From: Acidobacteriota bacterium | Lineage (GTDB): Bacteria > Acidobacteriota > Terriglobia > Terriglobales > Acidobacteriaceae | Assembly (NCBI GenBank): GCA_021779935.1 | Contig: JAJXZT010000001.1 | Coordinates: 62,001 to 126,000, forward strand | Length of the DNA stretch: 64,000 bases | Reading direction: 5' to 3' | Shown: piece by piece, positions 28,849-60,918 of the stretch | Layout of the letters: the number at the start of each line of letters is the position of its first letter | How positions within the stretch are numbered: the first letter of the stretch is position 1 | The notes under the pieces: generated by a model | The model's database searches: none | The model's input: only the letters and a program-made list of their open reading frames with translations | What the model was told of the DNA's origin: nothing | Position numbers and translations under genes: made by a program

Positions 28849-29927
28849 TGACCTGCTCCCCTGAATCCGCACATAACCGAGTATGATTTCGGATTCCGGA
28901 TAAACCGGGAAAGGGCGGAAGCATGTCACGAGGCAGACACACGGAAGCGGAGATGATTGGGGCGCTGAAGCAGATGGAAGCGGGGCGCAAGGCGGAAGAC
29001 GTGGCGTGGGAGATAGGCGTCAGTAAGCACACGATCTACGCCTGGTACGCCTGAAAGGCGAAGTACGGCGGGCTGGAAGTGAACGAAGCGCGCCGGTTGC
29101 GTGAGCTCGAGGACGAGAACCAGCGGCTGAAGAAGATCGTCGCGGATCTGAGCCAGGACCGGGAGATGCTGAAAGCGGTGATCGCAAAAAACGGCTGGAG
29201 CTCGTAGACCAGAGGACGGATGCGCGCTGGCTGCGCGAACAGTACGCGGCCAGCGAGCGCCGGGTCTGCGGGCTGCTGTCGGTGGCAGTCAGCAGTTATC
29301 GCTATGAAGCACGAGGAACGGATGATGCGCTGCGCACGAAGCTGGTCGAGATCGCCCGCGAGAAGCCGCGGTTCGGCTATCGGCGTTTGCATGTGTTGTT
29401 GCAGCGAAGTGGTGAGACCGTGAACTACAAGCTTGTGTATCGGGAAGCGGGGCTGTGCTTGCGGCGAAAGAAGTGCAAACACTGCATGCGAGTGAGTGCA
29501 CCATTGCGGCAGTGCACGGCGGCCAACCAGGAATGGACGCTGGACTTTGTGCATGATGCAATCGCCGCCGGTCGTACGATCCGCGTGCTGAGCGTGGTCG
29601 ATGCGTACACGCGCGAGTGCCTGGCGCTGGAAGTGGATACGAGCTTCGCCAGCCGGCGGGTGACGCGGGTACTGGACGAGATCATCGAGCGACGTGGCAG
29701 ACCGCTAGCGATTCGCTGTGACAACGGGCCCGAACTGATCAGCCGGCACTTCCGGGCGTGGTCAATTGAGCAGAAGATCGAGCTGGTGCACATCTATCCG
29801 GGAAAGCCGATGCGGAACGGGCGCTGCGAAAGCTTCAACGGTCGATTGCGGGAAGAATGCCTGCGGGTCAGTTGGTTTGAGAACTTGTTTGACACACGGA
29901 GGAAGATCGCAAACTGGCGGCAGGTCA
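28849..29927 (+). mobile_element. IS3-family insertion sequence, decayed
   Basis: An IS3-type element with orfA and orfB in the usual overlapping arrangement. The probable left end TGACCTGCTCCCC begins at 28849. At 29920-29927 an inverted match GCAGGTCA falls inside orfB, so the right end may have been joined to orfB by a deletion, or this match may be chance. The bases next to the two ends do not repeat (ATCT versus CGGG), so no target duplication is seen. OrfA carries an in-frame TGA and orfB has lost its usual C-terminus, so the copy is probably immobile. Confidence 0.7.
28923..29207 (+). pseudogene. IS3-family transposase orfA, interrupted by TGA
   Basis: Encodes a helix-turn-helix orfA: EAEMIGALKQMEAGRKAED, then EIGVSKHTIYAW, then a leucine-zipper-like ELEDENQRLKKIVADLSQD. 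After IYAW a 9-base repeat (TACGCCTGG TACGCCTGA) has added three codons, the last a stop at 29052-29054. The downstream part KAKYGGLEVNEARRL continues in the same frame. A slippery heptamer A-AAA-AAC lies at 29186-29192, just before the orfA stop, the standard -1 frameshift site for producing the OrfAB transposase. Confidence 0.8.
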
Positions 29928-30088
29928 CGGGCGGGAGCCCTCCCATTACGCGCAGGCTTGAGATTCATGCTGGAGTAACCTTCAGAATCGAACGTGAATT
30001 CTGCCCGCAAAGTGAGCCAAACATATGTGAGAGAATGACTTACAGAATCCCTTCAGGGATTTCGCTGAGGGAAAACAATAGCACCTGA
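29186..30088 (+). pseudogene. IS3-family transposase orfB (DDE), C-terminus lost
   Basis: Read in the -1 frame from the slippery site: KKRLELVDQRTDARWLREQY, then an HTH_21-like region and an rve integrase core. The catalytic triad is present: WTLDFVHD, IRCDNGPE, and CESFNGRLREECL with 35 residues between the second Asp and the Glu. After FDTRRKIANWR the family's usual YN..RPHSSLGY..P tail is absent and unrelated residues follow to the stop at 30088, which overlaps the end of the convergent glycosyltransferase gene. The copy therefore looks truncated or deleted at its right end. Confidence 0.8.
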
Positions 30089-35318: not shown

Positions 35319-36368
35319 TCATTGGAACTTCGCATCGAACTCGGCCTTTGCGATATTCAGATCCGAATGCCGGCCAATATCAACCCAATACTCCCGGATG
35401 GGAAATACTGCATGCGGAAACTTCGCATCTATTGCTTTCTCGAACACATCCGTCATGTCGATTTCTTCCTCGTCCTGGACAAGGTCAATCATTTCTGGAT
35501 CAAGGACGTAGATGCCCGCATTCACAAAGAACTTTTGCGTGGGCTTTTCTTGAATCTCAAGAATGTGATAACCGTCGACTTTCACCACGCCGTATGGAAC
35601 CTGAAATTCATAATCGCGGACACACATCGTAGCTTTGGAGTTTTGAGTGGCGTGAAACTCGAGAAGATGGTTGAAGTTTACCTTCGTAAGAATGTCCCCA
35701 TTCATGAGAACAAAAGGTAGCGTCGGCTTCTCCTCCAACAGGCACAATGCCCCAGCCGTCCCCAGCGGCTTCGACTCGCGGAGGTATTCAATGTTGGTGC
35801 CCCAACGCGAACCATTGCCAAAATAATCAATGATCATGTCGGCCTTATAGTTGACAGCTATGGAGAAGTTACGGAACCCATACTCGACAAGGTTAAGCAA
35901 CACGGTCTCAAGAATTGGGCGTCCTCCGACCGGAAGCATCGGTTTTGGGCAATCGTCAGTTAAAGGAGACAATCGCCTTCCAAAACCTCCTGCCATGAGA
36001 ACCACGCGGTTCATCAGGATCGGCGGAGCAAGTATGTCATCGATAATCTCCAACCCGGCGAGAGTGCCGTCAAGCGTAAGGATTGGCATCTGCCGGACGT
36101 GCAGTTGCCGCATTCGAGCAACAATCGCTTCGCGACTGTCGCCCAAGATCGCCGTCTTCGGGTTCGGGTTCATGACCGTCGATACGGGATCACTTAGAGG
36201 GATGCTATGGAGCATGGCGCGACGAATGTCTCCGTCCGTCAAGGTTCCGCACAGGTTGCCGCCATCCACGACTAGCGCGATTTGAAGTGAACTTTCGTCA
36301 ATTGTCCTTATGGCCTCGGCAATCGAGGAGGCCCGAGAGATGCAGGCTCGTTTCCAATTGTGCGGCAT
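35319..36368 (-). CDS. ptmE: CBS-domain sugar nucleotidyltransferase (PtmE-like)
   Basis: A 349-residue enzyme with two CBS motifs at the N-terminus (residues 1-115; TLTDGDIRRAMLHSI and LEIIDDIL are typical) followed by a nucleotidyltransferase: VVLMAGGFGRRLSPLTDDCPKPMLPVGG, GTAGAL, and VLMNGDIL with the metal-binding Asp. CBS-NTases of this layout, such as Campylobacter PtmE, make the GDP-amino-sugar that enters the GDP-linked legionaminic acid pathway. LegB, LegC and LegG homologues lie upstream in the same operon, which supports that role. Gene symbol is by homology of layout and context. Confidence 0.8.
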   Translation of the reverse strand: MPHNWKRACISRASSIAEAIRTIDESSLQIALVVDGGNLCGTLTDGDIRRAMLHSIPLSDPVSTVMNPNPKTAILGDSREAIVARMRQLHVRQMPILTLDGTLAGLEIIDDILAPPILMNRVVLMAGGFGRRLSPLTDDCPKPMLPVGGRPILETVLLNLVEYGFRNFSIAVNYKADMIIDYFGNGSRWGTNIEYLRESKPLGTAGALCLLEEKPTLPFVLMNGDILTKVNFNHLLEFHATQNSKATMCVRDYEFQVPYGVVKVDGYHILEIQEKPTQKFFVNAGIYVLDPEMIDLVQDEEEIDMTDVFEKAIDAKFPHAVFPIREYWVDIGRHSDLNIAKAEFDAKFQ

Positions 36369-36376
36369 CGTTGTTA

Positions 36377-37057
36377 TCAGTTTCGGTCAGCCTTTTGGGC
36401 GATAACAATCCACTCAATAATGTTGGCGCTGCGATTTCCGTCAGATCGAGATACGCGATCGATCGAATTAACCTCGAGCGGACTTAATAAATCTTTGATT
36501 TCACTTTCATCGGTGAATCTGGAAACTCCCTTGCCTCTGAGGGGTCCCTCCGATGCCAGCCAGGCATTATGGCCAATTTTAGAACCGATACCATCGCCCG
36601 AAGATCCGCTGGCAAACATCTTACTGAAAAGCTTGCCACTTGGTTTCAGCACCCGATGGGCTTCCTGGTATATCCGTCTCGCGTCATCATAAAGATTCGC
36701 GTAGATACACTCATTGTCAACGACAGCGTCAAAAAAGTCGTCACCATACGGCAAGCTGGAAACATCTCCCACCGATAACTCCCCGTGTCATCCTGACACT
36801 TCGGCGGCCATCCGCTGCCTGCAAATTGTGATCGCGGTCGTTGAGCCATCGATTCCGTACGCGGAAAATCCTTCCTTTGCAATGTACCAAACGTTCGCCC
36901 CTGGTCCGCAGCCAACTTCAAGAATTCGAATGGCATCACGTTCAGGTACCGTGTAGAAATTGCGCGCAACAAAGCGTATGACGTCCTCGCTAGGATATTT
37001 CCCCCAAGCCTGACTGCGAAATATATCTTCCCATGTGCGGTCCCACGGCATATTCAA
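36377..37057 (-). pseudogene. SAM-dependent methyltransferase split by one in-frame TGA
   Basis: Two open pieces in the same frame, 37057-36788 and 36772-36377, give a single class I methyltransferase (226 codons). The first piece holds RILEVGCGPGANVWYIAKEGF and YGIDGSTTAI, that is SAM motif I and post I. After SG a TGA at 36788-36790 interrupts, then HGELSVGDVSSLPYGDDFFDAVVDNE continues with motif II and III. A single base change (for example CGA to TGA) would explain it. A GTG at 36772 could start the second half alone, but that half lacks the SAM-binding loop. It sits four bases after the FemAB-like gene. Confidence 0.8.
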
Positions 37058-37061
37058 ACTC

Positions 37062-38057
37062 CTAACGATAAAATAGAACTCGACCGGGCCGAGCTTTGTA
37101 CTGTGCGGAAAATTGCTGCTTCAACTGCTCATATTGCGCAGACAAGTATATCCGCGCTCCGTACTTGAACTCCGCCCGATGATCGGAAAATCCTGATTTA
37201 AAGAATAACAATGGATTTTGAGGCTGACGATCGGTACCTCCTCCAAGATAAAACCTGGACAATCCCGCGGCTTTGCCGCGAATCGCAGCCTGATGCAATA
37301 TCAGCGTATTCGCGCCGTATTTTCTGCCTTCCAGGTCACAACCCGAAAGGTGATACTCCAGCAATCCGCCATCGCAAAGAAATATGGCGCCACCGATAAC
37401 ATGGTCGTTGTACCTGCACAACGCTAGTTCTGCCTTTTCCCAAGCAATCAGTTCTTCGAAGTATTCTGGAGGAAACAGATAAAATTCATCTGCACCCACG
37501 GCACGCATGGCATCGCAATAAAGCCGTCTGAATTGCAGTGCGCTTTCCCTGCCCCGCGCCCAGTCCACTGCAAGTCCAAGCTTTTCTGCCTTACGAATCG
37601 CAGTACGAACGCGCGTCTCGTATTCGGAGAACAAATCGTTGCTCTCCAGATCGACCCACACCGTCAATCGATCTTCAGTGACCTGGCCGCGGAAAAACCG
37701 CCAGTTCCGTAACATCGGATGGAAGCGGACGAATTCCACCACAATCGAATGGTCACGACACCACTCACCGAACGCTGTATTCGCTCGCTCAATAAAGTCC
37801 TGCTCCTCCGTATTGCAGATCGGACCGCCGTATGGATAAGGCGATTCAATGTCGTAGTAGTTGGTCCCGGGAATTTTCTTCCGATGAAAGAACACCAGGA
37901 ACTTCCGCTCACCTTCGCCGTACAACCAGTTCATCGACTCTGCCTCGTCGATTCGCTTCGCATCGACGAGCAGGAACTCTGGCGAGACGGTAGCGGCTCT
38001 GCTCTGGGCAGCAAAGGTATCAAGGACCGCCGCTGCCTCATTCGCGCTAACCAACAT
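37062..38057 (-). CDS. FemAB/GNAT-fold acyltransferase-like protein
   Basis: A 331-residue protein of the FemAB-like (duplicated GNAT) type. The second half carries CRYNDHVIGGAIFLCDGG, then LLEYHLSGCD and ANTLILHQAAIRGKAAGLSRFYLGGG, the strand and helix pattern of peptidoglycan bridge-forming or sugar N-acyltransferases. In nonulosonic acid loci an N-acetyltransferase (LegH) follows the 4-aminotransferase; none is recognisable here, so this protein could supply the N-acyl group. That is inference. It overlaps the small gene upstream by 11 bases and lies four bases before the broken methyltransferase. Confidence 0.65.
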   Translation of the reverse strand: MLVSANEAAAVLDTFAAQSRAATVSPEFLLVDAKRIDEAESMNWLYGEGERKFLVFFHRKKIPGTNYYDIESPYPYGGPICNTEEQDFIERANTAFGEWCRDHSIVVEFVRFHPMLRNWRFFRGQVTEDRLTVWVDLESNDLFSEYETRVRTAIRKAEKLGLAVDWARGRESALQFRRLYCDAMRAVGADEFYLFPPEYFEELIAWEKAELALCRYNDHVIGGAIFLCDGGLLEYHLSGCDLEGRKYGANTLILHQAAIRGKAAGLSRFYLGGGTDRQPQNPLLFFKSGFSDHRAEFKYGARIYLSAQYEQLKQQFSAQYKARPGRVLFYR

Positions 38058-38364
38058 CTGAGACCTCGATTAGATCGTCGATCTCATAGTCGCGTAAGGC
38101 AGATTTACCCGGATATTTCCGGTACTGCGTCGCCGAAATTCCTTTTTCTGTCGGATTTACGGCGAGAGTTTCCGGGCCATGGCACAGCGTGTGATCGGAA
38201 ATCTTCATCGCCAGCTCGAATGCATCCCCTGGCGTGGCTGTTGCTCTGTGGAATTTCACGCAACTCGCCCCTGCGGCAGCCACACCATGGACACACAGCA
38301 ATACCCGATCCAGCGATCTGCTATTAGTCACTTCAGCCTCGATTGCAGTATGTATCGGGTTCAT
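38047..38364 (-). CDS. Small protein of unknown function in the legionaminate operon
   Basis: A 105-residue protein from ATG 38364. It begins two bases after the end of the LegG fusion gene and ends 11 bases inside the FemAB-like gene, so it is a real, translationally coupled gene. I do not recognise a family. The middle VLLCVHGVAAAGASCVKFHRAT and the end NPTEKGISATQYRKYPGKSALRDYEIDDLIEV faintly recall the C-terminal linker of NeuB-type synthases (...PT..E....RRS...A..I..G). A remnant or a stand-alone adapter domain are both possible. No membrane segment or signal peptide is visible. Confidence 0.45.
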   Translation of the reverse strand: MNPIHTAIEAEVTNSRSLDRVLLCVHGVAAAGASCVKFHRATATPGDAFELAMKISDHTLCHGPETLAVNPTEKGISATQYRKYPGKSALRDYEIDDLIEVSDVG

Positions 38365-38366
38365 GA

Positions 38367-40601
38367 CTATCTTAAACGTGCAAACGCGGCAATCTTTTCA
38401 ACCATGTATGCCAATTCAGCTTCTTCCAGTCGTTGATCGATCGGAAGCGTCAAGATTGTCCGACTTAAAGATATATCCGCTTCCATGCCCGAGTTTTCAC
38501 GACCGCCGATTATAGGCCAATGCACGGGACAGTACACGCGATGTTCCTTCAGGTACGCCCGTAAATCATCACGAAGCCCGTTAAGTATCCTGACCGGATA
38601 ACCCAATGGCACCTCGCCGTCACGTAGGCGCATGAGCGGCTGTAATAGACCGCCAATGTCAGCCCGCTGAATATGCCTCTCAAGAATGCACCAGTTCTCG
38701 CGGCGTGCATTCGCAACTTTTACGAAATCGGTCCGTTGCATCAAGTATTTTGAAAGCCACGACATCTTCCTCGAACCATTCATGAGATCCAGCCGTTGCT
38801 CTGATTCTTCAAGCAACGAAATAAACAGTTGGTCCTGATCGCTATCGGCTCGCAATAATTTGCCGACGAGCTTTGCTGAGACAAATTCCTCATCCGCGTC
38901 CTCAAGATGGCATTGTATGGCGTCGTCGGAACCCAACAGCGCCCCATCCATCTGCGGAACAAATTTTCGATAGCTCGTTACCGCAAAATCTCCCGCCTGT
39001 CCAATTCCCAACGTAAGCCCCGCCTGAACACAATCCTCGATAATGAAGAACTGAGATTTTCGGCGAACATCTTTGAGCCACTGGCCAACGGCATCGTTAC
39101 GCAAGCCAAAATAGTGGATGTAGAGAAACGTCGAGCCCTCCAGGTCGACCGGCAGCGCTGCCGGCGTCGCCAGGTCACCGCCCATCGAGTAATAGCGCAC
39201 CTCAAATCCGAGGGACTCAAAAGGAGCAATCACTGATTCACAACAAAACGTCGGAAGGTAGGCAAGCAGCCTTCCACCGCGTTGCAGTATCGTTTCTAGA
39301 GCTACGCGAATCGCGGATCGTCCGCTATCTACCCATAAAAGATGCGATTTTGCGAAGGACGGAACCGAGTTGACGATATCCGCCTCGAACATCGAGGATC
39401 GAATTTCTAACTCCCCGCCCACTCGCAATGCCACCGTGGGCTTCGGCGGCTCGTCGTAGAAGCTCTTCGGTGTTCCAATATTTGCAGTCTTTAAAAATCG
39501 GACGATTTGCCGCGATGCGTCACAATTGCCATACGCGGAAACAGTTGACGGCAATTTCTTCCGGAATGGCTCGGACAAGGCAGTTCGTATCGCTTCGATT
39601 ATTGGTCCTGTCTCTTCCGGACAGTCAATCACTGATGACGCCCGCAGCCTTCCTTTCTGTCGGTTTCCGATGTTTACAGTCGCCGTCTTCAGTGCCGGTG
39701 CCTCCACTATGCCGCTCGAGGAATTGCCAATCACCACGTCGCAATACTTCATCATGCTCAAGTAACGGCGTTGTCCCAGGGATGTCACTACGGTTACGCG
39801 ATCGCGGCGGGTAGAAGCATACTCGTCGATCATTTTTGCAATCACTTGTCCGCCAGTGTCTGCGTTCGGCTTCGTAAATACGATCGAAGCCTCGGGAAAC
39901 TGGTCCAACGCATCGATCAAGGCTTTGGTGGAGTGTTCCGGTGGGATATCGCTCAGGGTTGCCGGATGATATGTAACAAGAAAAGTGGGTCGTCTCAATT
40001 CAAAGTTGAGATCGCGAGCCAATTCGTCGCGTACCATGAACTTCAGTCGCACGATGTTGTCGAGCCCGGGATCCCCAAAATTCAGCACGCGGGCTGGTTC
40101 CTCGCCCATCCGGATTACCCGCTCACGGTAGGGCTCCGCAGCCACAAAGTGGTAACTCGACATTTTCGTAATCGCATGACGGATACTATCGTCAATTGCA
40201 CCTTCCGTGACTTCTCCACCGGAAATATGTGCAATGGGGATTCTCGCCATCATTGCGGCTGTGGCCGCCACAAGTATTTCGAACCGGTCACCAAGCACGA
40301 CGACCAGATCGGGAGAGCTTTTGTGAAAGATCCCGGCGAAATCGATAAGGCCTGCTCCCATCGACTTCGTTATAGCTTCGGGTGTGTCAGAGTTTAGATC
40401 AATATTGGCGCGTGCATCGATCTTGAAACCATCTTCCTCGATGCATTTGTAGGTGTTTCCGTAGGCCGGCGATAAGTGCATTCCGGTCACAACCACCTGC
40501 AAAATAAGATCCGGATCGTTCTGGATTTCTTTCATGATCCAGAACAGCAGGCCGTATTCCGCCCTGCTACCAGTCACGACGCAGATCTTCCGTCTAGCCA
40601 C
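38367..40601 (-). CDS. LegG-type hydrolysing UDP/GDP-sugar 2-epimerase fused to DegT-family aminotransferase-like domain
   Basis: A 744-residue fusion. Residues 1-385 form a NeuC/LegG-type 2-epimerase: KICVVTGSRAEYGLLFWIMKE, VVTGMHLSPAYG, VVLGDRFEILVAATAAM and GNSSSGIVEAP. It removes the nucleotide and epimerises the diamino sugar before condensation with pyruvate. Residues about 400-744 resemble a DegT/DnrJ/EryC1 aminotransferase: WVDSGRSAIRVAL, LPTFCCESVIAPF, FFIIEDCVQAGLTLG, and a lysine in TSYRKFVPQMDGALL where the PLP-binding lysine is expected. LegC upstream is a separate aminotransferase, so the extra domain may make a further amino-sugar modification. Confidence 0.8.
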   Translation of the reverse strand: MARRKICVVTGSRAEYGLLFWIMKEIQNDPDLILQVVVTGMHLSPAYGNTYKCIEEDGFKIDARANIDLNSDTPEAITKSMGAGLIDFAGIFHKSSPDLVVVLGDRFEILVAATAAMMARIPIAHISGGEVTEGAIDDSIRHAITKMSSYHFVAAEPYRERVIRMGEEPARVLNFGDPGLDNIVRLKFMVRDELARDLNFELRRPTFLVTYHPATLSDIPPEHSTKALIDALDQFPEASIVFTKPNADTGGQVIAKMIDEYASTRRDRVTVVTSLGQRRYLSMMKYCDVVIGNSSSGIVEAPALKTATVNIGNRQKGRLRASSVIDCPEETGPIIEAIRTALSEPFRKKLPSTVSAYGNCDASRQIVRFLKTANIGTPKSFYDEPPKPTVALRVGGELEIRSSMFEADIVNSVPSFAKSHLLWVDSGRSAIRVALETILQRGGRLLAYLPTFCCESVIAPFESLGFEVRYYSMGGDLATPAALPVDLEGSTFLYIHYFGLRNDAVGQWLKDVRRKSQFFIIEDCVQAGLTLGIGQAGDFAVTSYRKFVPQMDGALLGSDDAIQCHLEDADEEFVSAKLVGKLLRADSDQDQLFISLLEESEQRLDLMNGSRKMSWLSKYLMQRTDFVKVANARRENWCILERHIQRADIGGLLQPLMRLRDGEVPLGYPVRILNGLRDDLRAYLKEHRVYCPVHWPIIGGRENSGMEADISLSRTILTLPIDQRLEEAELAYMVEKIAAFARLR

Positions 40602-40604
40602 GAG

Positions 40605-41801
40605 TCACTTCTCCGACGCACTGCTTGGTATGTTTACGATTCTCTTCTCCAGGCTCTCCGCGACCGGCAGCTCCATGCGAGGACAGTTCTCGTACATGGG
40701 CAGCCGCGACATCAACGTCCAAACCGGCCGGGTCATAATTCCATCCTTGATGGTAGCGTCGAGCAGGGCGTCACGCTGCGTGGCAAACTCTTCGTCCAGC
40801 AGCAAGGCGTTGAGCCAGTAGTTGCTCTGCGTCAACGGTGGTTCCGCGATGAGTTGGACTCCGGGCACCGAGGCGAACGCAACCCGGTAGCACTCGTGGA
40901 GCAAGCGCTTGGCAACAATAAATTTTGGGAGCTGCTCTAGCTGCGCACAGCCGAGTGCCGCATTCAAATTCGGCATTCTGAAGTTGTAACCGACCTGGTC
41001 GTGGAAGTATCGCCACGGATGGGGCTGGCGCGCCGTTGTGGTGATGTGCTTGGCAACTCTTCCCTCTTCTTCATTTTGGAAGAGCAGTGCGCCGCCGCCG
41101 CCTGTTGTGATGATCTTGTTCCCGTTAAAGCTCAGGACTCCGATTCGGCCCAGTGTTCCCACGTGACGGCCTTTGTAATAGGAACCGAGTCCTTCTGCGG
41201 CATCCTCGACGACTTCGATCTTCCACCGAGAGGCCACCTCGAGCAGTGGATCCATGTCCACTGGGTGCCCGAAGGTATGCATCGGCACTACCGCCCGGAT
41301 CGGCCGGCCAGTGACACGGTTTATGCAGCCGCAGGACGAAGTTTCCGCGATTTCGTCGAGGTACTCGACGAGCCGCCCCGAGTCGATGCCCAGTGTCTGT
41401 TGGCTGCTGTCCACGAAATGAGGAAATGCTCCCAAGTAGGCTACTGCGTTGGCTGTGGCGACAAAGGTTAGCGCGGGAATAAGGACTTCGTCGCCCGGTT
41501 GCACACCGCTCAGCTTCAGAGCTATTTGCAGAGCTGCAGTGCCGTTCACCACCGCAACGACGCGTTTTGACCCTGTAAATTCCGCCAATTCCTGTTCAAA
41601 CCGGTCAACATAAGCGCCTACGGAAGACACCCAGCCCGTATCAATGCAGTCGACTAGATATTCACGCTCTCTGCCGGCGAAGCGAGGCTGGTGGAGCGTA
41701 TGCGGAACCTGCTGTGAGTCCAAGACGGAACGCAGGGTCCGGACGATCGTTTCAATGGAAAATCCCTGATTAGAGGTTGTACGAACTGGACTTATAGCCA
41801 T
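40605..41801 (-). CDS. legC: LegC-family PLP aminotransferase
   Basis: A 398-residue DegT/DnrJ/EryC1-type aminotransferase of the LegC branch. It shows PRFAGREREYLVDCIDTGWVSSVGAYVDRFE (family opening), NGTAALQIAL, VPMHTFGHPVDMDPLLEVA, and VVEDAAEGLGSYY followed by SFNGNKIITTGGGGALL with the PLP lysine. LegC aminates the 4-keto group of the LegB product. The start at ATG 41801 lies about 30 bases inside legB; the longer frame to 41867 is within legB. It is followed three bases later by the LegG fusion gene. Confidence 0.85.
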   Translation of the reverse strand: MAISPVRTTSNQGFSIETIVRTLRSVLDSQQVPHTLHQPRFAGREREYLVDCIDTGWVSSVGAYVDRFEQELAEFTGSKRVVAVVNGTAALQIALKLSGVQPGDEVLIPALTFVATANAVAYLGAFPHFVDSSQQTLGIDSGRLVEYLDEIAETSSCGCINRVTGRPIRAVVPMHTFGHPVDMDPLLEVASRWKIEVVEDAAEGLGSYYKGRHVGTLGRIGVLSFNGNKIITTGGGGALLFQNEEEGRVAKHITTTARQPHPWRYFHDQVGYNFRMPNLNAALGCAQLEQLPKFIVAKRLLHECYRVAFASVPGVQLIAEPPLTQSNYWLNALLLDEEFATQRDALLDATIKDGIMTRPVWTLMSRLPMYENCPRMELPVAESLEKRIVNIPSSASEK

Positions 41802-42780
41802 GCAGCTTTCCTGACTCCGTAAACCAACGGATAGTTTCCGCAAGACCGCGGCGGAATCCTTCCACACCTTTGTACTCCGGCTGCCAGCCTAGGAGATGTC
41901 GCGCTTTGCTGTTATTGGAAAGTAGCCGGTTCACTTCGCTGTTCAAAGGACGGACCCGGACCTCGTCTTCAACCGGCTCGACCGTGGCTCCCATCAGCTC
42001 AGCAATCATCTTGAGAGTGTCGCCAATGGAAACCTCAAATCCACTACCGAGGTTGATCGTTTGCCCCACTCCCTGTTCTGACTCGAGTGCCGCTACAAAG
42101 CCCTTAGCCGTGTCGGTGACGAAGCTGAAGTCGCGCGTAGGGTGCAGCGATCCCAGGTGGATCTTTCGCGCACCACTCGCGATTTGGGTGATGATCGTCG
42201 GTATCACCGCTCGCGCCGACTGTCGCGGGCCGTAGGTGTTAAAGGGACGCACGACTATCACCGGCGTCTCAAACGAGTAGTAGAAGGAAAGCGCAATCTG
42301 ATCGGCGCCGATCTTGCTCGCAGAATAAGGTGACTGGCCAACCAATGGGTGTTCCTCTGTAATAGGAACAAACTGCGCCGTACCGTATACCTCGCTGGTG
42401 GAGGCGTGTATGACGCGCTGGATACCGAGCTGCCTCGCCGCCTGAACCACATTCAGCGTGCCCTTCACATTCGTATCCACATAGGTATCCGGAGAATGGT
42501 ACGAGTACGGGATCGCGATCAGCGCCGCCAGATGGAGCACGGCATCACAGTCTTCCATCGCCTTATGGACCCCGTGGGGGTCGCGGATATCCCCAGCAAA
42601 TACATCCAGTTCCCGGCGCGTCGCCTCGGGAAGGTCGTCAAGCCATCCCCACCGATTAAATGAGTTGTACTGCACGAAAGCTCGCGTGGCGTAACCCTGT
42701 TTGAGCAGGTACTCCACCAGGTGTGAGCCTATAAAACCACCTGCTCCTGTTACGAGAACCCTCTTGTACGTAGGTTTCAA
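41770..42780 (-). CDS. legB: LegB-type NAD-dependent 4,6-dehydratase
   Basis: A 336-residue extended SDR. The NAD-binding VLVTGAGGFIGSHLVEYLL is near residue 8, and ASTSEVYG with the following YSASKIGAD supplies the Ser/Tyr/Lys active site. The FVQYNSFNRWGWLD segment and RPFNTYGPRQSARAVIPTII match LegB dehydratases, which form the 4-keto-6-deoxy intermediate. The start is uncertain: a TTG at 42780 gives the family N-terminus, while an upstream TTG at 42870 would add 30 residues of poor quality. It is the first gene of the leftward operon and is divergent from the chain-length gene. Confidence 0.85.
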   Translation of the reverse strand: MKPTYKRVLVTGAGGFIGSHLVEYLLKQGYATRAFVQYNSFNRWGWLDDLPEATRRELDVFAGDIRDPHGVHKAMEDCDAVLHLAALIAIPYSYHSPDTYVDTNVKGTLNVVQAARQLGIQRVIHASTSEVYGTAQFVPITEEHPLVGQSPYSASKIGADQIALSFYYSFETPVIVVRPFNTYGPRQSARAVIPTIITQIASGARKIHLGSLHPTRDFSFVTDTAKGFVAALESEQGVGQTINLGSGFEVSIGDTLKMIAELMGATVEPVEDEVRVRPLNSEVNRLLSNNSKARHLLGWQPEYKGVEGFRRGLAETIRWFTESGKLHGYKSSSYNL

Positions 42781-43518
42781 AGTGAATTCACCCGAAAAGC
42801 AATTAGTCGGCAGTATGCCGGCATGTGCAAGTGAAGTTAAACAATTCTTGCAGTGCTCAAGCCATGCCAAAAGCGGCGGCTACTGAATCCGAGATGTTTC
42901 GCCTTCCACAGTAGCAACCGAAGATTGAGATGCAGGCCGCCGTCTGAAAGCGAAGCGGAAATGCAACGTTACCGATCCCGAAAACCGCGTCAACTTCATC
43001 CGCAGATGCCTGCCGTGGCGGGAAACACTCCACAAATCGGACGCCAAATGGCACTAACTATCTGAAAACATTACCGCGTCAATACCATGTCACAAGAGAA
43101 TTTGCCCCGTCAAGTCCGAACTATTCGGCAGATCACGCGAATCCTCGTGGTTTCGAATCGTTTCAAATTGCAATGCAAATCGCAACCTGTAATTTGTCAC
43201 GCCGGCCAGGCGCCGATAGGCAAGTTCACCTCATCAACGGCGATCGCGCTCGATCATTCAACCATCGCTTTGCTCGCAAGCTCCGATGCTCTCGATGCTC
43301 CGGCCCTCCGCTCCAGATAATCCGACAGTTTCCCGATGAAGCAAAACAGTTCTCGCAATCCCATAAAAACCAACTACTTTCCGCGGAGATCCAAATTATG
43401 CAGTCTAGCGCTGGAAGTTTTCCGGACAGCAATGGATTATTGTATATTGCAGCTACGACAGCGACATCTCTGTGTCGTTCCGTAAGCGAAGCAGGAAAAC
43501 GTTCGAATTGAACTGGAT
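42781..43518. other. Divergent intergenic region, legB / chain-length gene
   Basis: About 740 bases without a credible gene. It must hold promoters for the leftward legB operon and for the rightward chain-length gene. The half near 43200-43500 is AT-richer (ATTATTGTATATTGC). No duplicated operators or RNA structure could be picked out by eye. Confidence 0.5.
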
Positions 43519-50383: not shown

Positions 50384-51403
50384 ATGCACGTGAAGAATGC
50401 CGTTAACACCGAGAGGACCATAGTTGTCCACGGTACCGGGTCTATAGGCATGCGCCACCTCCGGGTCTTCCGGGATCTAGCTAGCGAACTCGTGATAGCT
50501 GTCCCGAAGCGTCCGGAGCGTTGCGAGGACCTGCGCCACGAAGGTTTTTCCAGCGTTGCGTCCATGTCGGACGCGGCCGTCCCTGATGCACTCCTTGTAA
50601 TCGCCAGTGATACCGGCCGACACATCCGGGACGCCGTCGATGCCATGGCCCTCGGCTTTGCCGGCCTGCTGATCGAAAAGCCACTAGCACCGTCTGTCCA
50701 GGGGCTTCGCGAACTGGAGATGGCCTGCTCACGCATTCCCAATAAGATATTCGTTGCCTGTAACCTTCGCTTTGCCGCGTCCATGAGTGTCTTTCGGAAC
50801 CGTCTTGCCGAAATTGGCAGAATTCACCATGTCAGGATTGAAGCTCAGTCTTATCTCCCCGAGTGGCGCCCCGAGCGGGATTATCGTCAGAGTTATTCGG
50901 CCGACGCCGCGCAAGGCGGAGTTCTTCGGGACCTTATTCACGAGATCGACTACGCCGTGTGGCTCTTCGGCAGACCGGGAAACGTCTACGCCATGCTTTC
51001 CAACACGGGAAGGCTCGGCATTGCCAGTGAAGAATCCGCTGATTTGCTCTGGCAGGTTCCTTCTGGCCCAACTGTTTCCATGCGCCTCGATTACCTGACC
51101 AGGCAGTATCGCCGTATCATGACCGCAACCGGAAAACTTGGCGAGATTATCTGGGACTTCCCCACCCAGACTGTGACCCTCCGGAAAGTTGGATGCCCTC
51201 CGGAAGTCATCGTTACCCCCCAGGCGCGTGATGAAATGATGCATTCGCAGGCTGTCGCGTTCTTGTCCGCATGTCAAACTGGAGCGCAATCCCAGTTGGC
51301 TACCTTGGAGGAAGGCGCCTTTGCGGTTGCTCTTTGCGATGCCGCGAGAACCTCGTCTGAAACTGGAAAAAGACAGACTATCCCTGACTGGAGAAAGCAA
51401 TGA
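50384..51403 (+). CDS. Gfo/Idh/MocA-family oxidoreductase (PtmF-like)
   Basis: A 339-residue NAD(P)-binding oxidoreductase. The dinucleotide motif is VVHGTGSIGMRHLRV (about 13), and the family signature EKPLAPS is near residue 98. GGVLRDLIHEIDYAVWLFG (about 180) supplies the catalytic His. It overlaps legF by ATGA, so it belongs to the legionaminate half-operon. Campylobacter legionaminate loci carry the accessory genes ptmA and ptmF beside legF; this protein is the likely PtmF counterpart, but its exact substrate is not known to me. Confidence 0.78.
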   Translation: MHVKNAVNTERTIVVHGTGSIGMRHLRVFRDLASELVIAVPKRPERCEDLRHEGFSSVASMSDAAVPDALLVIASDTGRHIRDAVDAMALGFAGLLIEKPLAPSVQGLRELEMACSRIPNKIFVACNLRFAASMSVFRNRLAEIGRIHHVRIEAQSYLPEWRPERDYRQSYSADAAQGGVLRDLIHEIDYAVWLFGRPGNVYAMLSNTGRLGIASEESADLLWQVPSGPTVSMRLDYLTRQYRRIMTATGKLGEIIWDFPTQTVTLRKVGCPPEVIVTPQARDEMMHSQAVAFLSACQTGAQSQLATLEEGAFAVALCDAARTSSETGKRQTIPDWRKQ

Positions 51404-52143
51404 GTGTCCGGCCCGTGCTGGCAGTCATACCCTGCCGTGGTGGATCCAAAGGTTTGCCCGGCAAAAACATCCGGCCCCTGGCCGGTCTACCGCTGCTTGC
51501 ACACTCTATTCGAATGGCCAAGATGTCCCCGGCCATCCAGCACTGCATCGTATCCACGGACAGCGAGCAAATCGCCGCCGTCGCTCGCGAACATCAAGGC
51601 GACGTTCCTTTCCTGCGTCCTCCCGAACTCGCACAGGACGACACTCCGATGTGGCCCGTTCTGCAACATGCACTGCGGGAAATGGAAGCCCGGGATGGAA
51701 TTCGCTATGGCAGCGTCCTTTTACTGGATCCAACCAGTCCCGGCCGTTTGCCGGAAGACGTCGACAAGGCTATTGCGATGCTCGAGAGTGATCCCAAGGC
51801 GTTTGGCGTCGTCGCCGCTTCGGAACCTCATTTCAATCCTCGCTGGGTGTGCATTGAGATAGAGACTGATGGCTACATGCGCCAGAGCTACAGCAATAAG
51901 CAGATTTACACCCGCCGCCAGGAAGTCCCCTCCGTCTATCGGATTAACGGCTCTCTCTACCTCTGGCGCAGGGATCACGTTGCCCTGTCGGATGCTCCGA
52001 AATTCTACGAAGTGCCGCACCTTATGTTAGAGATTCCGGAGGATCGGGCGATTCACATTGACGAGCTTCACGATTTCCAGTTGGCCGAGGTACTCATTCG
52101 CGAAGGCCTCGTACAATTCCCTTGGTTGCAACTAGGAAGGTGA
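51400..52143 (+). CDS. legF: Acylneuraminate/legionaminate cytidylyltransferase
   Basis: A 247-residue CMP-nonulosonate synthetase. The opening VLAVIPCRGGSKGLPGKNIRPLAGLPLL is the NeuA/LegF signature (about residues 5-30), DSEQIAAVA and LLDPTSPGR (about 110) provide the CTP/Mg site, and RINGSLYLWRRD is near residue 185. It activates the nonulosonic acid as CMP-sugar for a glycosyltransferase. It overlaps the PtmF-like gene by ATGA and is followed four bases later by the PtmA-like SDR. Confidence 0.88.
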   Translation: MSVRPVLAVIPCRGGSKGLPGKNIRPLAGLPLLAHSIRMAKMSPAIQHCIVSTDSEQIAAVAREHQGDVPFLRPPELAQDDTPMWPVLQHALREMEARDGIRYGSVLLLDPTSPGRLPEDVDKAIAMLESDPKAFGVVAASEPHFNPRWVCIEIETDGYMRQSYSNKQIYTRRQEVPSVYRINGSLYLWRRDHVALSDAPKFYEVPHLMLEIPEDRAIHIDELHDFQLAEVLIREGLVQFPWLQLGR

Positions 52144-52147
52144 CCCG

Positions 52148-52948
52148 ATGAGAAGTGTGCACGAACTCATGTCTTTGCAGGGACGCGTAGCCGCCATCAC
52201 CGGAGGCGCAGGTCACATCGGGCGTGCGTTCGCCCAGTCTCTTGCGGAGCTTGGATGCAATATCTGCATCCTGGATGTGGCAAAGGACCGCGCCGAAGAA
52301 GTCGCGTCCTCCTTGCGAGATACCTACCGGGTCAAAGCGTCAAGCTTTGTGGCTGACATCACCGACGAGCGTCAGGTCGCGGAGATGGCTCAACACATCG
52401 TCAAGGCACACCAACGGTTGGACATCCTGATTAACAACGCGGCTTATCCTTCGCTTTCCGTCGCCGAAGACGGAAAGAAGCTCGAAGATCAAACACTTGA
52501 ACAATGGGAACCAAACGTAAACGTCTGCCTGCGGGGAACCTTTCTCACAACCCGCGCCGTGACGCCTCTTCTCCGGCAGTCCAAGAACGCCAGCATCGTC
52601 AACATCGCTTCAATTTATGGCGTCGTGGGACCAGACATGCGGCTTTATGATGGGCTGGAGATGGGAAACTCCGCGTGGTACGCGGCTGCAAAGGGTGGCA
52701 TTGTCCAGCTTACCCGCTATCTCGCTTCCACCCTGGCGCCCTCTATCCGCGTCAACTGCATTGCGCCCGGAGGAGTCTGGCGTAACCAACCTGAGAGTTT
52801 TCACGTTCGGTACGTGGCAAGAACCCCCTTACAAAGAATGGCCGTCGAGGAGGATCTGTGTGGCGCGGCGGTATTTTTCACCAGCGACCTTTCCTCTTAC
52901 GTGACGGGACAAGTTCTGCTGGTTGATGGAGGCTGGACTTCATGGTAA
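52148..52948 (+). CDS. Short-chain dehydrogenase/reductase (PtmA-like)
   Basis: A 266-residue classical SDR. The NAD(P) motif is AAITGGAGHIGRAFAQSL (about 16), INNAAYPS near 95, the catalytic serine in NIASIYGV and the Y-x-x-x-K in WYAAAKGG (about 180). LVDGGWTSW ends the protein. Its place between legF and legI corresponds to ptmA in Campylobacter legionaminate loci, whose SDR acts early in the pathway on the amino-sugar precursor; here that role is inferred. It overlaps the legI start by seven bases. Confidence 0.82.
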   Translation: MRSVHELMSLQGRVAAITGGAGHIGRAFAQSLAELGCNICILDVAKDRAEEVASSLRDTYRVKASSFVADITDERQVAEMAQHIVKAHQRLDILINNAAYPSLSVAEDGKKLEDQTLEQWEPNVNVCLRGTFLTTRAVTPLLRQSKNASIVNIASIYGVVGPDMRLYDGLEMGNSAWYAAAKGGIVQLTRYLASTLAPSIRVNCIAPGGVWRNQPESFHVRYVARTPLQRMAVEEDLCGAAVFFTSDLSSYVTGQVLLVDGGWTSW

Positions 52949-53994
52949 ACGCGGTTAACATTTCGCAGAGAACCATCGCTCCCGGACAACCTTGTTTCAT
53001 TATTGGGGAGGCAGGGGTCAACCATAACGGCCATTACGATATGGCACTGCAGCTCATCGACGCAGCAGCAGCGGCTGGCGTCGACGCCGTCAAGTTCCAG
53101 ACCTTCAAATCCGAAGAGGTCATCTCTCCGGCAGCGCCCAAGGCCGCTTATCAGGTGCGCAACACCGGAGAAGAAGAGTCGCAACTGGAGATGGTGAAGA
53201 AGCTCGAGTTGCCCCCGCAGGCATTTCGCGATCTCTCCGCCTATTGCCACCGGAAGGGCATCCTTTTCCTCTCGACGCCCTTTGATTTCTCCAGTGTCGA
53301 TCTCCTGGATGATATCGGCGTGCCTGCCTTTAAAATCGCATCCGGCGAGATCACCAACTTTCCTTTTCTCCGTCACATTGCCCGGACAGGCAAACCCATC
53401 ATTCTCTCCACCGGCATGTCCACCATGCTGGAGGTATCCGTAGCGGTCAATTTATTGGCTGAATCCGGCGTGCGCGAATTGGTGCTTCTCCACTGCACCA
53501 GCAACTATCCGGCCTCTCCGGAAAGCGTGAACCTGCGTGCCATGCGCGCCATGGAAGACACCTTTCATGTGCCCATCGGTTATTCCGATCACACGGAAGG
53601 CATTGCGATTCCGATAGCCGCTGCAGCGCTGGGAGCGTGTGTCCTCGAGAAGCACTTTACCCTGGATCGCAATTTACCTGGTCCTGATCACCGCGCATCG
53701 CTCGAACCCTCTGAATTGAAGGAGATGGTGCTGTCGGTTCGTAAGGTGGAAGCGGCTCTCGGCACCGGCGAGAAGAAACCGACCAGCGAGGAGCTGAATA
53801 CGGCAGCCGTGGCCCGTCGAAGTTTGGTTGCCGCCCGCAGCCTGACTGCCGGTACGGTCATCAGCGAAGACATGATTGTCATCCGGCGGCCCGGCACTGG
53901 CCTGCCTCCGTCGATGCTGCCCTCCGTCCTCGGGCGGCGCCTTAAGACCGGCATCGATGCCGGAACGCTTCTGACCCTGGAGATGCTCGATTGA
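52942..53994 (+). CDS. legI: N-acetylneuraminate/legionaminate synthase
   Basis: A 350-residue NeuB-family enzyme condensing phosphoenolpyruvate with a 6-carbon amino sugar to give the nine-carbon nonulosonic acid. It has CFIIGEAGVNHNGHYDMAL (about 16), GVDAVKFQTFKSEEV, FKIASGEITNFPFL, GYSDHTEGIAIP (about 213) and EKHFTLDRNLPGPDH. A C-terminal SAF/antifreeze-like domain (about 290-350) ends in VISEDMIVIRRPGTGLPPSML. It is in operon with the PtmF-like, legF and PtmA-like genes. A truncated legG follows at its very end. Confidence 0.9.
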   Translation: MVNAVNISQRTIAPGQPCFIIGEAGVNHNGHYDMALQLIDAAAAAGVDAVKFQTFKSEEVISPAAPKAAYQVRNTGEEESQLEMVKKLELPPQAFRDLSAYCHRKGILFLSTPFDFSSVDLLDDIGVPAFKIASGEITNFPFLRHIARTGKPIILSTGMSTMLEVSVAVNLLAESGVRELVLLHCTSNYPASPESVNLRAMRAMEDTFHVPIGYSDHTEGIAIPIAAAALGACVLEKHFTLDRNLPGPDHRASLEPSELKEMVLSVRKVEAALGTGEKKPTSEELNTAAVARRSLVAARSLTAGTVISEDMIVIRRPGTGLPPSMLPSVLGRRLKTGIDAGTLLTLEMLD

Positions 53995-54199
53995 GAAGCA
54001 TTGGCGTTGTCACAACCTCCCGCGCCGATTACGGCATTTACCTGCTTCGTTGCGTGCTCTCGATTCCGATCCGGATATCGCGCTTTCGCTCTACGTCTCC
54101 GGGATGCATCTTTCTCCTGAATTCGGACTCACCGTGCAAGAGATCGAGCGGGACGGTTTCGAAATCGCGGAACGTTCCGAATGCGGCTGGCGTGAATAG
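53991..54199 (+). pseudogene. Truncated, frameshifted LegG/NeuC copy
   Basis: Beginning at a TTG that overlaps the legI stop, the sequence reads RSIGVVTTSRADYGIYLLR, then shifts frame near 54050 and continues SDPDIALSLYVSGMHLSPEFG, VQEIERDGFEIAERSEC before a stop at 54197-54199. These are the first 60 or so residues of a hydrolysing 2-epimerase (compare VVTGMHLSPAYG of the intact copy at 38.4-40.6 kb). The remaining 300 residues are missing. The 260 bases up to the rmlD stop contain nothing recognisable. Confidence 0.78.
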
Positions 54200-58419: not shown

Positions 58420-60918
58420 CTACTTTCCGATAATCGCAATCGACGCCGCCGAAATTGCCAGTTGCGATGCAATCTGCGTCCAGTCGCGCAGGTTTCGTTG
58501 CATCGTGCCCGACTCAAGTTTGGTCGGAACCACAACCGTGTCTCCAGGCATCAAATGCAACTTGTCATACGCGTTTCCTGCCCACAGCGAGTTGCCCTGG
58601 TCCTTGCTCACCACCGTGCCGTCGGCCCTCAGCACAAACATATGTTTGGTGTCCGCCATGGGGGTTCCCTTGCCCGCCAGATCGAAGTAGTAATTCGGGC
58701 GACGTCCTGGTGTGTAGAGCAGCGCGCTTTGGTTGTACACGGCGCCCACCACGTTCACCGTCGCCGGCTTGGTTGGAATCATTACCTGGTCGCCATCTTC
58801 CAGTGCAATCGGAGGCAGGTCTGACACCGAGGAAGCAGACGGCCCCAGTTGCAGAACCACGCGCCCCAGTGCTTGCAGCTGCCGCAGTTGATTTACCAAT
58901 TGCTCCTGCGATTGCGCCTTTGCCTGGATCGCTGCCGCATCTTGAGGATTTGCGTTTGCCTCTCCTGCGTTCGACTGCCGGAGTTGGATCTCCATCATTC
59001 TCACAAGTTCGTCAACGCTCTTCTGTTGCTGCTTGCGAACCGACTCGCGTGTCAATTGTGTGCCGAAAAGGTAGGCGCCTTTTGTCAGGCCGCCCGCTCG
59101 CTCCACAATCGATTGCAGGGTATCCGTCGGCTCAATCTTGTAAATACCCGGCGCGTGGACTTCCCCTTCTACCTTCACAAACCTGGTCTGCCTGTCCTGC
59201 GGAACCGAGACATCTTTTTGCGAGAAAATCGTAACGATGTCGCCCGGCTGCAACTCGACGTTCTGGCTCTGATCGTGGTCGATCATCACCTTGCCAAGAT
59301 TGAATGGGATCAGGCTCGTCGTCAGGTCCACGGGATTCGTGCGCTGCACAACTGCGTAATCCCAGTTCACCTCTGGCGCAACCTCCCGCACATCCGTCGT
59401 CAAAGTGTTCTCGTTTGACCGCATCCGGGGCATTGTGCCTGACTCTTGCGGCATCGTCCCTCCGGTACTTGCGGGCTGATTGTACCCGGGATAATTCTCC
59501 ACTTGCGAAGGAGTACCCCCCGGCGTAACTGTTGCCCCCGGCGTAACTGTTGCCCCCGGCGTAACTGTTGCCCCCGGCGTAACTGGCTGCGGCCTCGGAT
59601 ATTCCGTCTGTCTCCCGTTGACCAGCCGCGATTGATTTAACCAGTACTGCCGCGTCAGCAGCATTTCTTTGTTCGGGATCAGGTCCGTGATGCGCATTCC
59701 GGGATGCCACGGATACCGGCCCGGGTTCACCACGTTGCCCCGCAGCGTCACCGTGTCATTGAAGCTCGGCACCACTGAGAGCACACTCACCATGTCGCCG
59801 TTCTGCACGTCGAAACTCTTCGCCTCGTCCAACGGAATTTCCTTCACGACACGCGTCGTCCGGTCTTCAATTCTCTCCACCGTGACGCGTCCGCCGCTGG
59901 CTACCGTGGAAAGCCCGCCCGCATCCTTCAGCACGCTGGCCAGGCTCGTCTTCCCCTTCAATTCATAGATGGCAGGTACGTTGACGCTGCCCGAAACCGC
60001 CACCAGTGGCCCGACCGGTGGTATATAAATCACATCGCCCGACTGCAGCGTCGCGTCCTTCGACTTGTCGCCACGAAGCAGCAAGTCGTAAAGATCGAAA
60101 TCCGTCACCACTTTGGATCCCCGCTTCAATTGGATATCGCGAAGCGATCCTTCCGGCGACGGACCGCCAGAGGCGAAGAGAGCATTCACCAGCGTGCTCA
60201 GAGAACTGACCGTGTACCGGCCCGGAAATTCCGCGTACCCCACCACAAACACTTCAATCGTTCGCAGCTGTCCCATGCTGGCCGTCAGATCGAAGTTCTT
60301 GTAGATCCGGCCAATCTCGGTTTTCAGCTTGTCCTGTAATTGCGCATAGCGCACGCCGGCCAGGCTGATTGCTCCCACTTTAGGCAGGTAAATATCGCCG
60401 TTGCGGTCCACCGTCACGCGTGCATTCAGGTTGATCTGGCCCCAAACCCGGATCAGCACTTCATCACCCGGGCCCAGAACGTAGTCGGCCGGCACCGGCG
60501 CGTGATCGACCGGAGCAAAGGTGCTTGGCGGGTTATAGAAAAGCGATTGTCCATAGATGGGAATTCGCCTCCCAACAGAGTCCGCCACCATCTGTTCGAA
60601 CTCCGTCGGCCGCTGTTCTTTTCGTATGCGCATACGGCGCATCTGTTCCTGCAGGCCCAGATACTGCGTCTGCAGGTTCGCCGCTTCCGGAGATGCGCCA
60701 GGCTGCGCCAGCGTTTCCTGCTGCCCCTGCCCTGGAGCCGCCGTATTCATGCCAAGTGCCGCACGAACCTTCTGGCAGTCACTTGGCGACAGGTTCGCGC
60801 ACGGATCCTGCTGCGTACCCGTCATGCCCGATTGCTCGGTCTGGGCGATTGCCATCCCCATCAGAGATATCAATAAAAAAATTGAGAGTGCTATCTTCGA
60901 AAACTTCGCCATTTTCAT
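58420..60918 (-). CDS. Wza-like polysaccharide export protein with multiple SLBB domains
   Basis: An 832-residue outer-membrane export protein, about twice the length of E. coli Wza. Residues 1-25 form a signal peptide ending in AIAQTEQ; there is no lipobox cysteine, so it is not a Wza-type lipoprotein. The Poly_export motif DYVLGPGDEVLIRVWG is at about 145-160 and several SLBB-like domains follow (for example VEGEVHAPGIYKIEPTDTLQSIVERAGGL, about 575). Residues about 450-475 are a tandem repeat of VTPGAT coded by an 18-base unit near 59519-59584. It probably forms the outer-membrane channel for the polymer together with the Wzz- and Wzy-like proteins. Confidence 0.88.
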   Translation of the reverse strand: MKMAKFSKIALSIFLLISLMGMAIAQTEQSGMTGTQQDPCANLSPSDCQKVRAALGMNTAAPGQGQQETLAQPGASPEAANLQTQYLGLQEQMRRMRIRKEQRPTEFEQMVADSVGRRIPIYGQSLFYNPPSTFAPVDHAPVPADYVLGPGDEVLIRVWGQINLNARVTVDRNGDIYLPKVGAISLAGVRYAQLQDKLKTEIGRIYKNFDLTASMGQLRTIEVFVVGYAEFPGRYTVSSLSTLVNALFASGGPSPEGSLRDIQLKRGSKVVTDFDLYDLLLRGDKSKDATLQSGDVIYIPPVGPLVAVSGSVNVPAIYELKGKTSLASVLKDAGGLSTVASGGRVTVERIEDRTTRVVKEIPLDEAKSFDVQNGDMVSVLSVVPSFNDTVTLRGNVVNPGRYPWHPGMRITDLIPNKEMLLTRQYWLNQSRLVNGRQTEYPRPQPVTPGATVTPGATVTPGATVTPGGTPSQVENYPGYNQPASTGGTMPQESGTMPRMRSNENTLTTDVREVAPEVNWDYAVVQRTNPVDLTTSLIPFNLGKVMIDHDQSQNVELQPGDIVTIFSQKDVSVPQDRQTRFVKVEGEVHAPGIYKIEPTDTLQSIVERAGGLTKGAYLFGTQLTRESVRKQQQKSVDELVRMMEIQLRQSNAGEANANPQDAAAIQAKAQSQEQLVNQLRQLQALGRVVLQLGPSASSVSDLPPIALEDGDQVMIPTKPATVNVVGAVYNQSALLYTPGRRPNYYFDLAGKGTPMADTKHMFVLRADGTVVSKDQGNSLWAGNAYDKLHLMPGDTVVVPTKLESGTMQRNLRDWTQIASQLAISAASIAIIGK
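59519..59584 (-). repeat. 18-bp tandem repeat inside the export gene
   Basis: The unit GGCGTAACTGTTGCCCCC (plus strand) occurs about three and a half times in perfect register. It encodes the repeated hexapeptide VTPGAT on the minus strand. Such repeats can gain or lose units without shifting frame. Confidence 0.9.

Follow-up and report, generated by a model that had tools for sequence, protein, structure and literature searches.

A LegG epimerase fused to a divergent DegT-type domain in an acidobacterial legionaminic acid locus

Introduction

A second aminotransferase is encoded in the legionaminic acid (Leg) cluster of Aliivibrio wodanis, which has been likened to that of Vibrio vulnificus CMCP6, the maker of the alanyl-bearing Leg5Ac7AcAla; the excerpts of that study on which we draw mention no fusion (PMC7371886). 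A Leptospira cluster also has a second aminotransferase, of unsure role, together with a NeuB-phosphatase fusion, and in animals the uridine diphosphate N-acetylglucosamine (UDP-GlcNAc) 2-epimerase is fused to the N-acetylmannosamine (ManNAc) kinase that acts on its product (excerpts of PMC3438082). Here we analyze a gene of an Acidobacteriota bacterium that, like the last two cases, joins an enzyme of nonulosonic acid synthesis to a second enzyme domain. Here the hydrolysing 2-epimerase LegG has a divergent DegT-type domain (DegT′) as its partner, whereas the partners in the described fusions are a kinase and a phosphatase. The gene lies in a stretch of 64,000 nucleotides, referred to below as the window (contig JAJXZT010000001.1, positions 62,001 to 126,000).

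Aminoacylated legionaminic acids, Leg5GluNMe7Ac and Leg5Ac7AcAla among them, are known chemically, and the available excerpts assign no gene to the attachment of amino acids to legionaminic acid (PMC13317340, PMC5207245, PMC7371886). An orthologue of the methyltransferase PtmH has been linked to Leg5GluNMe7Ac (PMC13317340). For one flagellin amino sugar that is N-acylated by amino acids, the locus contains a FemAB-like and an FdtB-like gene (PMC5207245, PMC5207246); that of C. difficile type B flagellin shares with the window a FemAB-like gene and a DegT-type enzyme, there an FdtB-type aminotransferase, but involves no nonulosonic acid (PMC5207246). Likeness to all of these systems is by description only, the sequences of the cited papers not having been compared with the window proteins. 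Within excerpted literature on LegG-aminotransferase fusions and on FemAB proteins with nonulosonic acids, we found no report of a LegG-DegT′ fusion, and the consulted part of PMC6137143 contains no LegG fusion. This agrees with a preliminary description of the locus, made from its sequence, whose author knew of no such protein.

Results

The fusion gene is a single open frame of 744 codons on the minus strand (38367-40601) with a GTG start and no internal stop. Its limits and two-domain layout are those given in the preliminary description, which had left the strand unstated. Residues 1-378 (39468..40601, minus strand) constitute a LegG/NeuC hydrolysing 2-epimerase domain, and residues 388-744 (38370..39440, minus strand) a DegT-type pyridoxal 5′-phosphate (PLP) domain, assigned by profile comparison, model and fold match. 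The N-terminal part contains GDRFEILVAATAA and GNSSSG; residues 4-370 match TIGR03568 with 478.4 bits (cut-off 235.9) over positions 1-365 of the 365 in the model, and the epimerase assignment made earlier by eye thus holds. This half is 47% identical to the LegG protein of a Campylobacterales locus (L039 in our numbering, in which L denotes loci and G genomes).

Separate LegG relatives in the fetched loci end in KKFYDI, RFHDL or KKQFHDF. At that point the fusion protein reads TPKSFYD and continues unbroken into EPPKPTV. Because KSFYD matches the place where separate LegG proteins stop, the join lies at the natural LegG end, and the LegG half is, as judged from its sequence, a complete pathway epimerase with predicted hydrolysing activity. 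The G+C content at the three codon positions is as expected of coding sequence in the LegG half (55.6/43.4/57.7) and in the DegT′ half (60.3/40.2/54.7). The open frame, the join at the natural end and the composition led us to reject a frameshift or lost stop in a badly read gene, a doubt raised in the preliminary description. It is also extremely unlikely that an error of assembly or base calling joined two genes: such an error would be in keeping with the occurrence of the LegG-DegT′ fusion in one genome only, among the matches listed, but the locus sits within a 307-kb contig, and the frame runs cleanly through a junction that coincides with the natural LegG terminus.

The fusion is both real and unusual. 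NeuC scored over its cut-off in 61 of 396 genomes of the phylum, and among the matches listed seven frames exceeded 650 residues, of which only that of the window's genome (G000) is a LegG-aminotransferase fusion. The long NeuC frames of G243, G149, G896, G785 and G832 are, by eye, a normal NeuC with upstream read-through. A further frame, from G703 (L056 595-2721, plus strand, 708 residues), lies close to the end of its contig; its start resembles, by eye, a penicillin-binding protein, it continues as an incomplete NeuC, and it is a chimera or a misassembly. Domain and alignment queries of 399 class, 386 phylum and 300 family genomes gave no LegG-fused DegT′ beyond G000 among the matches listed, and in one of these searches with DegT′ the other frames reached 634 residues at most. 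Nor did any of 72,556 plasmid records cover 80% of the fusion protein in one place. Other long frames were set aside: the DegT′ frames of G630 (783 residues) and G697 (797 residues) read through an overlapping FemAB gene, those of G058, G179 and G199 (>650 residues) contain no LegG-DegT′ fusion, and in G246 and G570 the LegG and ordinary DegT sequences do not share a frame.

The same domain order was recovered once with another partner. A class-mate, G053 (L007 265-2931, minus strand; one of 61 genomes), encodes an 888-residue protein in which LegG is joined to an ordinary DegT aminotransferase (PF01041, 383 bits) and not to DegT′. An ordinary DegT gene is also the next gene after LegG in L051-L053. 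Since the partners in G053 and G000 differ and the two genes are adjacent in L051-L053, LegG-aminotransferase fusions have arisen at least twice, with different partners. Among the matches listed, a search for the two-domain order, proposed earlier as a check, gave LegG-DegT′ in G000 only, plus this LegG with an ordinary DegT.

We then turn to the identity of the C-terminal domain. By itself, DegT′ obtains 18.3 bits with PF01041, below the gathering score of 19.8, and has no match to LegC (TIGR04181) even at E 10. In an alignment of DegT′ with separate relatives from other genomes (10 rows), every one of the 10, the fused domain among them, matches PF01041 with an E value of at most 0.01. Compared by hhalign with a LegC-type alignment, this alignment gave a probability of 99.8 (E 1.2e-27), and its profile retrieved DegT sugar aminotransferases from the PDB (best 7b0d, 1.3e-30; TlmJ, 1.4e-29). 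An AlphaFold model of DegT′ built with 50 sequences had a pLDDT (predicted local distance difference test) of 77 and a pTM (predicted template modelling score) of 0.78 and was poor at domain residues 1-25 and 183-230; the folding alignment used 44 of 93 viral-contig loci, picked by length and profile score. A single-sequence model of the whole 744-residue protein reached a pLDDT of 37.5. To judge by their titles, the Foldseek matches listed for the DegT′ model (50) are DegT-type aminotransferases. Superposition gave Z 26.2 and a root-mean-square deviation (rmsd) of 4.0 over 301 residues for GDP-perosamine synthase, and Z 25.4 and rmsd 3.0 over 297 residues for PseC. DegT′ thus shares its fold (297-301 residues), a lysine and an acidic residue with the DegT sugar aminotransferases GDP-perosamine synthase, PseC and TlmJ, but differs from them in its low identity (12-17% among the structure matches listed) and in a Pfam score below the cut-off.

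Across the 50 aligned DegT′ rows only G499, E522, D523, K546 and G553 are invariant. K546 (codon at 38964..38966, minus strand), the predicted PLP Schiff-base lysine, is the lysine in SYRKFVPQ that had been singled out by eye, and it is conserved in 50/50 rows, as are E522 and D523. In the DegT superfamily the lysine in this position is the Schiff base former, and the aspartate equivalent to D523 holds the pyridine nitrogen. On profile and model grounds, DegT′ is a divergent DegT-type fold with an intact predicted PLP site, and it may bind PLP and catalyze transamination. The preliminary description had allowed for a C-terminal part unlike an aminotransferase or without a PLP pocket; the fold and the predicted PLP residues are both present. 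Its DegT assignment was a good reading that would have been unsafe without profiles or a model, given the Pfam score of 18.3. In a tree, DegT′ branches apart from LegC. The tree groups the fused domain with a Priestia plasmid protein (98/97); both are long branches, so this grouping is weak.

The genomic company of DegT′ relatives points to FemAB enzymes. In six opened loci of separate DegT′ relatives an Acetyltransf_6 (FemAB/GNAT) gene adjoins, and a PF13480 match lies within 3 kb on the same contig for 20/23 DegT′ genes (21 genomes; G943 and FSFTK-type relatives excluded), with 2 to 7 PF13480 matches per genome in those 21 (E 0.001). The DegT′ genes without one nearby (G468:C109, G586:C62 and G805:C141) are all near contig ends. 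For seven of these 20 genes, that of the window included, a FemAB neighbor was already known before counting; among the newly met DegT′ genes used in the count, 12 of 13 were co-located. In the window, too, the DegT′ gene has an Acetyltransf_6/FemAB gene beside it. A genome of the same order, G043, encodes a FemAB-DegT′ fusion of 802 codons with an ATG start (L186 1508-3916, minus strand), in which an Acetyltransf_6 domain (96.6 bits) is followed by DegT′ (PF01041, 74 bits; family profile, 235 bits). It has the same DegT′ family domain as the window protein, joined to an acyltransferase and not to LegG. Enzymes that are produced as a single protein tend to share a pathway, which makes the L186 fusion the best single support for a cassette in which DegT′ and FemAB act together.

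The preliminary description had instead tied the extra enzyme to LegG, proposing that it could add an amino group to the sugar or aldehyde set free by LegG. With this step coupled by the fusion and irrespective of FemAB, we regard that as unlikely. The physical fusion to LegG, the conserved K546 and fold and the presence of LegC all speak for it, as does the animal 2-epimerase fused to a kinase for its own product (in the excerpts of PMC3438082). However, the relatives of DegT′ are linked or fused to FemAB enzymes, and we did not detect LegG in any of 32 DegT′ or FemAB loci, the single weak match (L180) being annotated as a non-hydrolysing WecB. The two DegT′ fusions, with LegG in the window and with FemAB in L186, might also be taken to mean that the domain keeps its fold, and may bind PLP, but has a docking or regulatory role in keeping LegG close to FemAB; this is very unlikely, as the lysine and the acidic residue are invariant across very distant rows.

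An unfused equivalent of the system was found in Campylobacterales. A whole-protein search of genome contigs returned two Campylobacterales loci only, L039 and L040 (JAPLGP010000004.1 and MICF01000003.1), which are legionaminic acid clusters that adjoin flagellin-like genes. Their run comprises genes for a sugar isomerase-like protein, a short-chain dehydrogenase/reductase (SDR), LegC, a radical SAM protein, DegT′, a methyltransferase and FemAB, and then LegI, LegG, PtmE, a Gfo/Idh protein, a CMP transferase, PtmA and a Maf-like protein, with flagellin-like genes next (isomerase, radical SAM, Maf and flagellin labels by eye). DegT′ is here a separate protein of 298-299 residues that keeps the lysine. 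Ten of the 14 genes in the run have counterparts in the window, with identities of 47-49% for LegC, 46-47% for LegG, 51-52% for LegI, 27% for FemAB and, over aligned stretches, 20-29% for DegT′. The two loci thus have the same Leg gene set as the window and differ in their separate DegT′, their radical SAM and Maf-like genes and their intact methyltransferase. Among 199 genomes of L039's order the strong DegT′ matches were L039 and L040 only; 58, including these two, match DegT′ at E 0.001.

DegT′ and FemAB also occur together outside Leg clusters. A Deinococcus plasmid, a Priestia plasmid and G241 (L076) carry them with a GNAT gene and PglF/PglE/PglC-like genes. These Pgl names rest partly on annotation; such genes would direct the synthesis of a 4-amino-4,6-dideoxy sugar. 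Although annotated as hypothetical, the Priestia protein is the closest separate relative of DegT′ (23% over 371 residues, E 1e-23), its HKVYYPIHWP corresponding to HRVYCPVHWP in the fused domain. It sits between the GNAT and FemAB genes, after the PglF/PglE/PglC-like genes, in a polysaccharide locus of Priestia megaterium (NZ_CP069610.1) that shares DegT′ and FemAB with the window, but has bacillosamine-like genes and no LegG in the stretch. Seven FemAB loci (L076, L180-L185) were obtained by searching with DegT′ or FemAB and not through a Leg gene, and in five of the seven the fetched stretch contains PglF/PglE-type genes. Scans of viral contigs with DegT′ or LegC gave no relative, nor did a phage search.

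Directly upstream of the fusion in the window, on the same strand, are LegC (40605..41867, minus strand; TIGR04181, 534 bits, cut-off 420), which covers the standard aminotransferase step, as the preliminary description had recognized, and the 4,6-dehydratase LegB (41770..42870, minus strand; TIGR04180, 510 bits, cut-off 475). Downstream lies a FemAB/GNAT-type acyltransferase gene with 331 open codons (37062..38057, minus strand; PF13480, 49 bits; PF02388, 25.5 bits), with relatives in L039, L040, L076 and L180-L182. Packed between it and the fusion, and overlapping its start, is a 105-residue open reading frame (ORF) with faint NeuB-like segments (38047..38364, minus strand); its ends weakly resemble the N-terminus and the C-terminal domain of NeuB (8.5 bits, compared with 8.0 for the best of 2000 shuffles, which is not significant). 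Next come a methyltransferase gene (36377..37051, minus strand), 43% identical over 144 residues to the intact methyltransferase of L039, and a PtmE-like gene with CBS and nucleotidyltransferase domains (35319..36368, minus strand; 45-48% identical to L039/L040). The methyltransferase gene contains a single in-frame TGA at 36788-36790, and we rejected the view that it is a frameshifted gene; the DegT′-methyltransferase-FemAB trio of Leg clusters is therefore not all intact here.

The remaining Leg genes are on the plus strand: a Gfo/Idh oxidoreductase (50384..51403; 27% to its L039/L040 counterparts), a CMP-nonulosonate cytidylyltransferase-like protein (51400..52143; 32-33%), a PtmA-like SDR (52148..52948; 35%) and an intact LegI/NeuB synthase (52942..53994; TIGR03569, 476 bits). 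Directly after LegI lies what is left of a second LegG gene, ~60 codons in two frames (53991..54181, plus strand). Because LegI directly precedes LegG in L039, L040, L042 and others, and the remnant follows LegI here, decay seems to have removed the original LegG and left the fused one in place.

These signs of decay, together with the poor retention of conserved columns in the fused domain, keep alive the explanation that the LegG stop codon was lost in a decaying locus, that only LegG works and that DegT′ is a passenger. The in-frame TGA of the methyltransferase gene and the LegG remnant fit this history, and of 33 near-invariant columns the fused domain keeps 24 (73%), compared with 75-96% in the other nine family members. 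Its 357 codons are nonetheless open and coding-like in composition, the active-site residues are kept and the neighboring FemAB gene is an open frame, so that a passenger domain, though a live rival, appears improbable to us.

Elsewhere in the window, an ORF at 29282-30088 (plus strand), at the edge of a polysaccharide cluster, is transposase- or integrase-like by eye. Two adjacent ORFs at 58420-60918 and 61099-63597 (minus strand) each encode exactly 832 residues and have no significant mutual similarity.

Discussion

The window encodes the whole LegG/NeuC domain of TIGR03568 together with LegB, LegC, LegI and PtmE, as expected of a known pathway, and the fusion adds a second, C-terminal enzyme domain to it. 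On balance we think it probable that the protein is a two-domain legionaminic acid enzyme, in which LegG is joined to the PLP member of a tailoring cassette that consists, in Leg clusters, of DegT′, FemAB and a methyltransferase. This accounts for the locus better than an amination of the sugar released by LegG, since the relatives of DegT′ are linked or fused to FemAB and DegT′ is unfused in L039 and L040.

In such a cassette LegB and LegC would make a 4-amino sugar. The FemAB protein, standing in for the usual LegH/PglD, would N-acylate an amino group, the acyl donor possibly being an amino acid, and DegT′ would install or exchange an amino group either on the sugar itself or on its acyl substituent. 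LegG would remove the nucleotide from the 2,4-diamino-6-deoxy sugar and invert C2, and LegG, LegI and the CMP transferase would carry the decorated sugar onward, the fusion keeping the PLP step and LegG together in one complex. The product would probably be an N-acylated legionaminic acid. For this scheme we infer the acyl donor, the substrate, the product and the benefit of the fusion. The unusual nonulosonic acid derivative that the preliminary description proposed would still be the likeliest outcome, although we infer it only.

FemAB is the likeliest candidate for the N-acyltransferase here because LegB and LegC would supply a 4-amino sugar and no NeuD/PglD scored over its cut-off in the genome, in which a GNAT-type LegH elsewhere was not searched for. 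That limit is one of several points that weigh against the cassette. Over its length the fused DegT′ shares only ~20-27% identity with any relative. Of the 19 columns without variation among the nine remaining family members it has lost three, the most of any, its 16/19 being the lowest fraction among the ten. The cassette methyltransferase of the window is interrupted by its stop, and we found no window counterpart of the L039 radical SAM gene. FemAB relatives without DegT′ in L181, L183, L184 and L185 imply that FemAB does not need DegT′. Finally, the Leg cassette in unfused form is rare, and the evidence for it comes from two contigs that are related.

More tentatively, DegT′ and FemAB could form an undescribed two-enzyme tailoring module, present in several phyla that make 4-amino-4,6-dideoxy sugars such as legionaminic acid and bacillosamine-like sugars, which would replace the usual acetyltransferase and build amino-acid-bearing sugars. 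In the window the PLP step of this possible module would have been joined to LegG, with the effect that the nonulosonic branch receives the tailored sugar only, giving a new legionaminic acid derivative. The recurring DegT′-FemAB pair, which forms a single protein in one case and has its PLP half joined to LegG in another, provides candidate genes for the attachment of amino acids to legionaminic acid.

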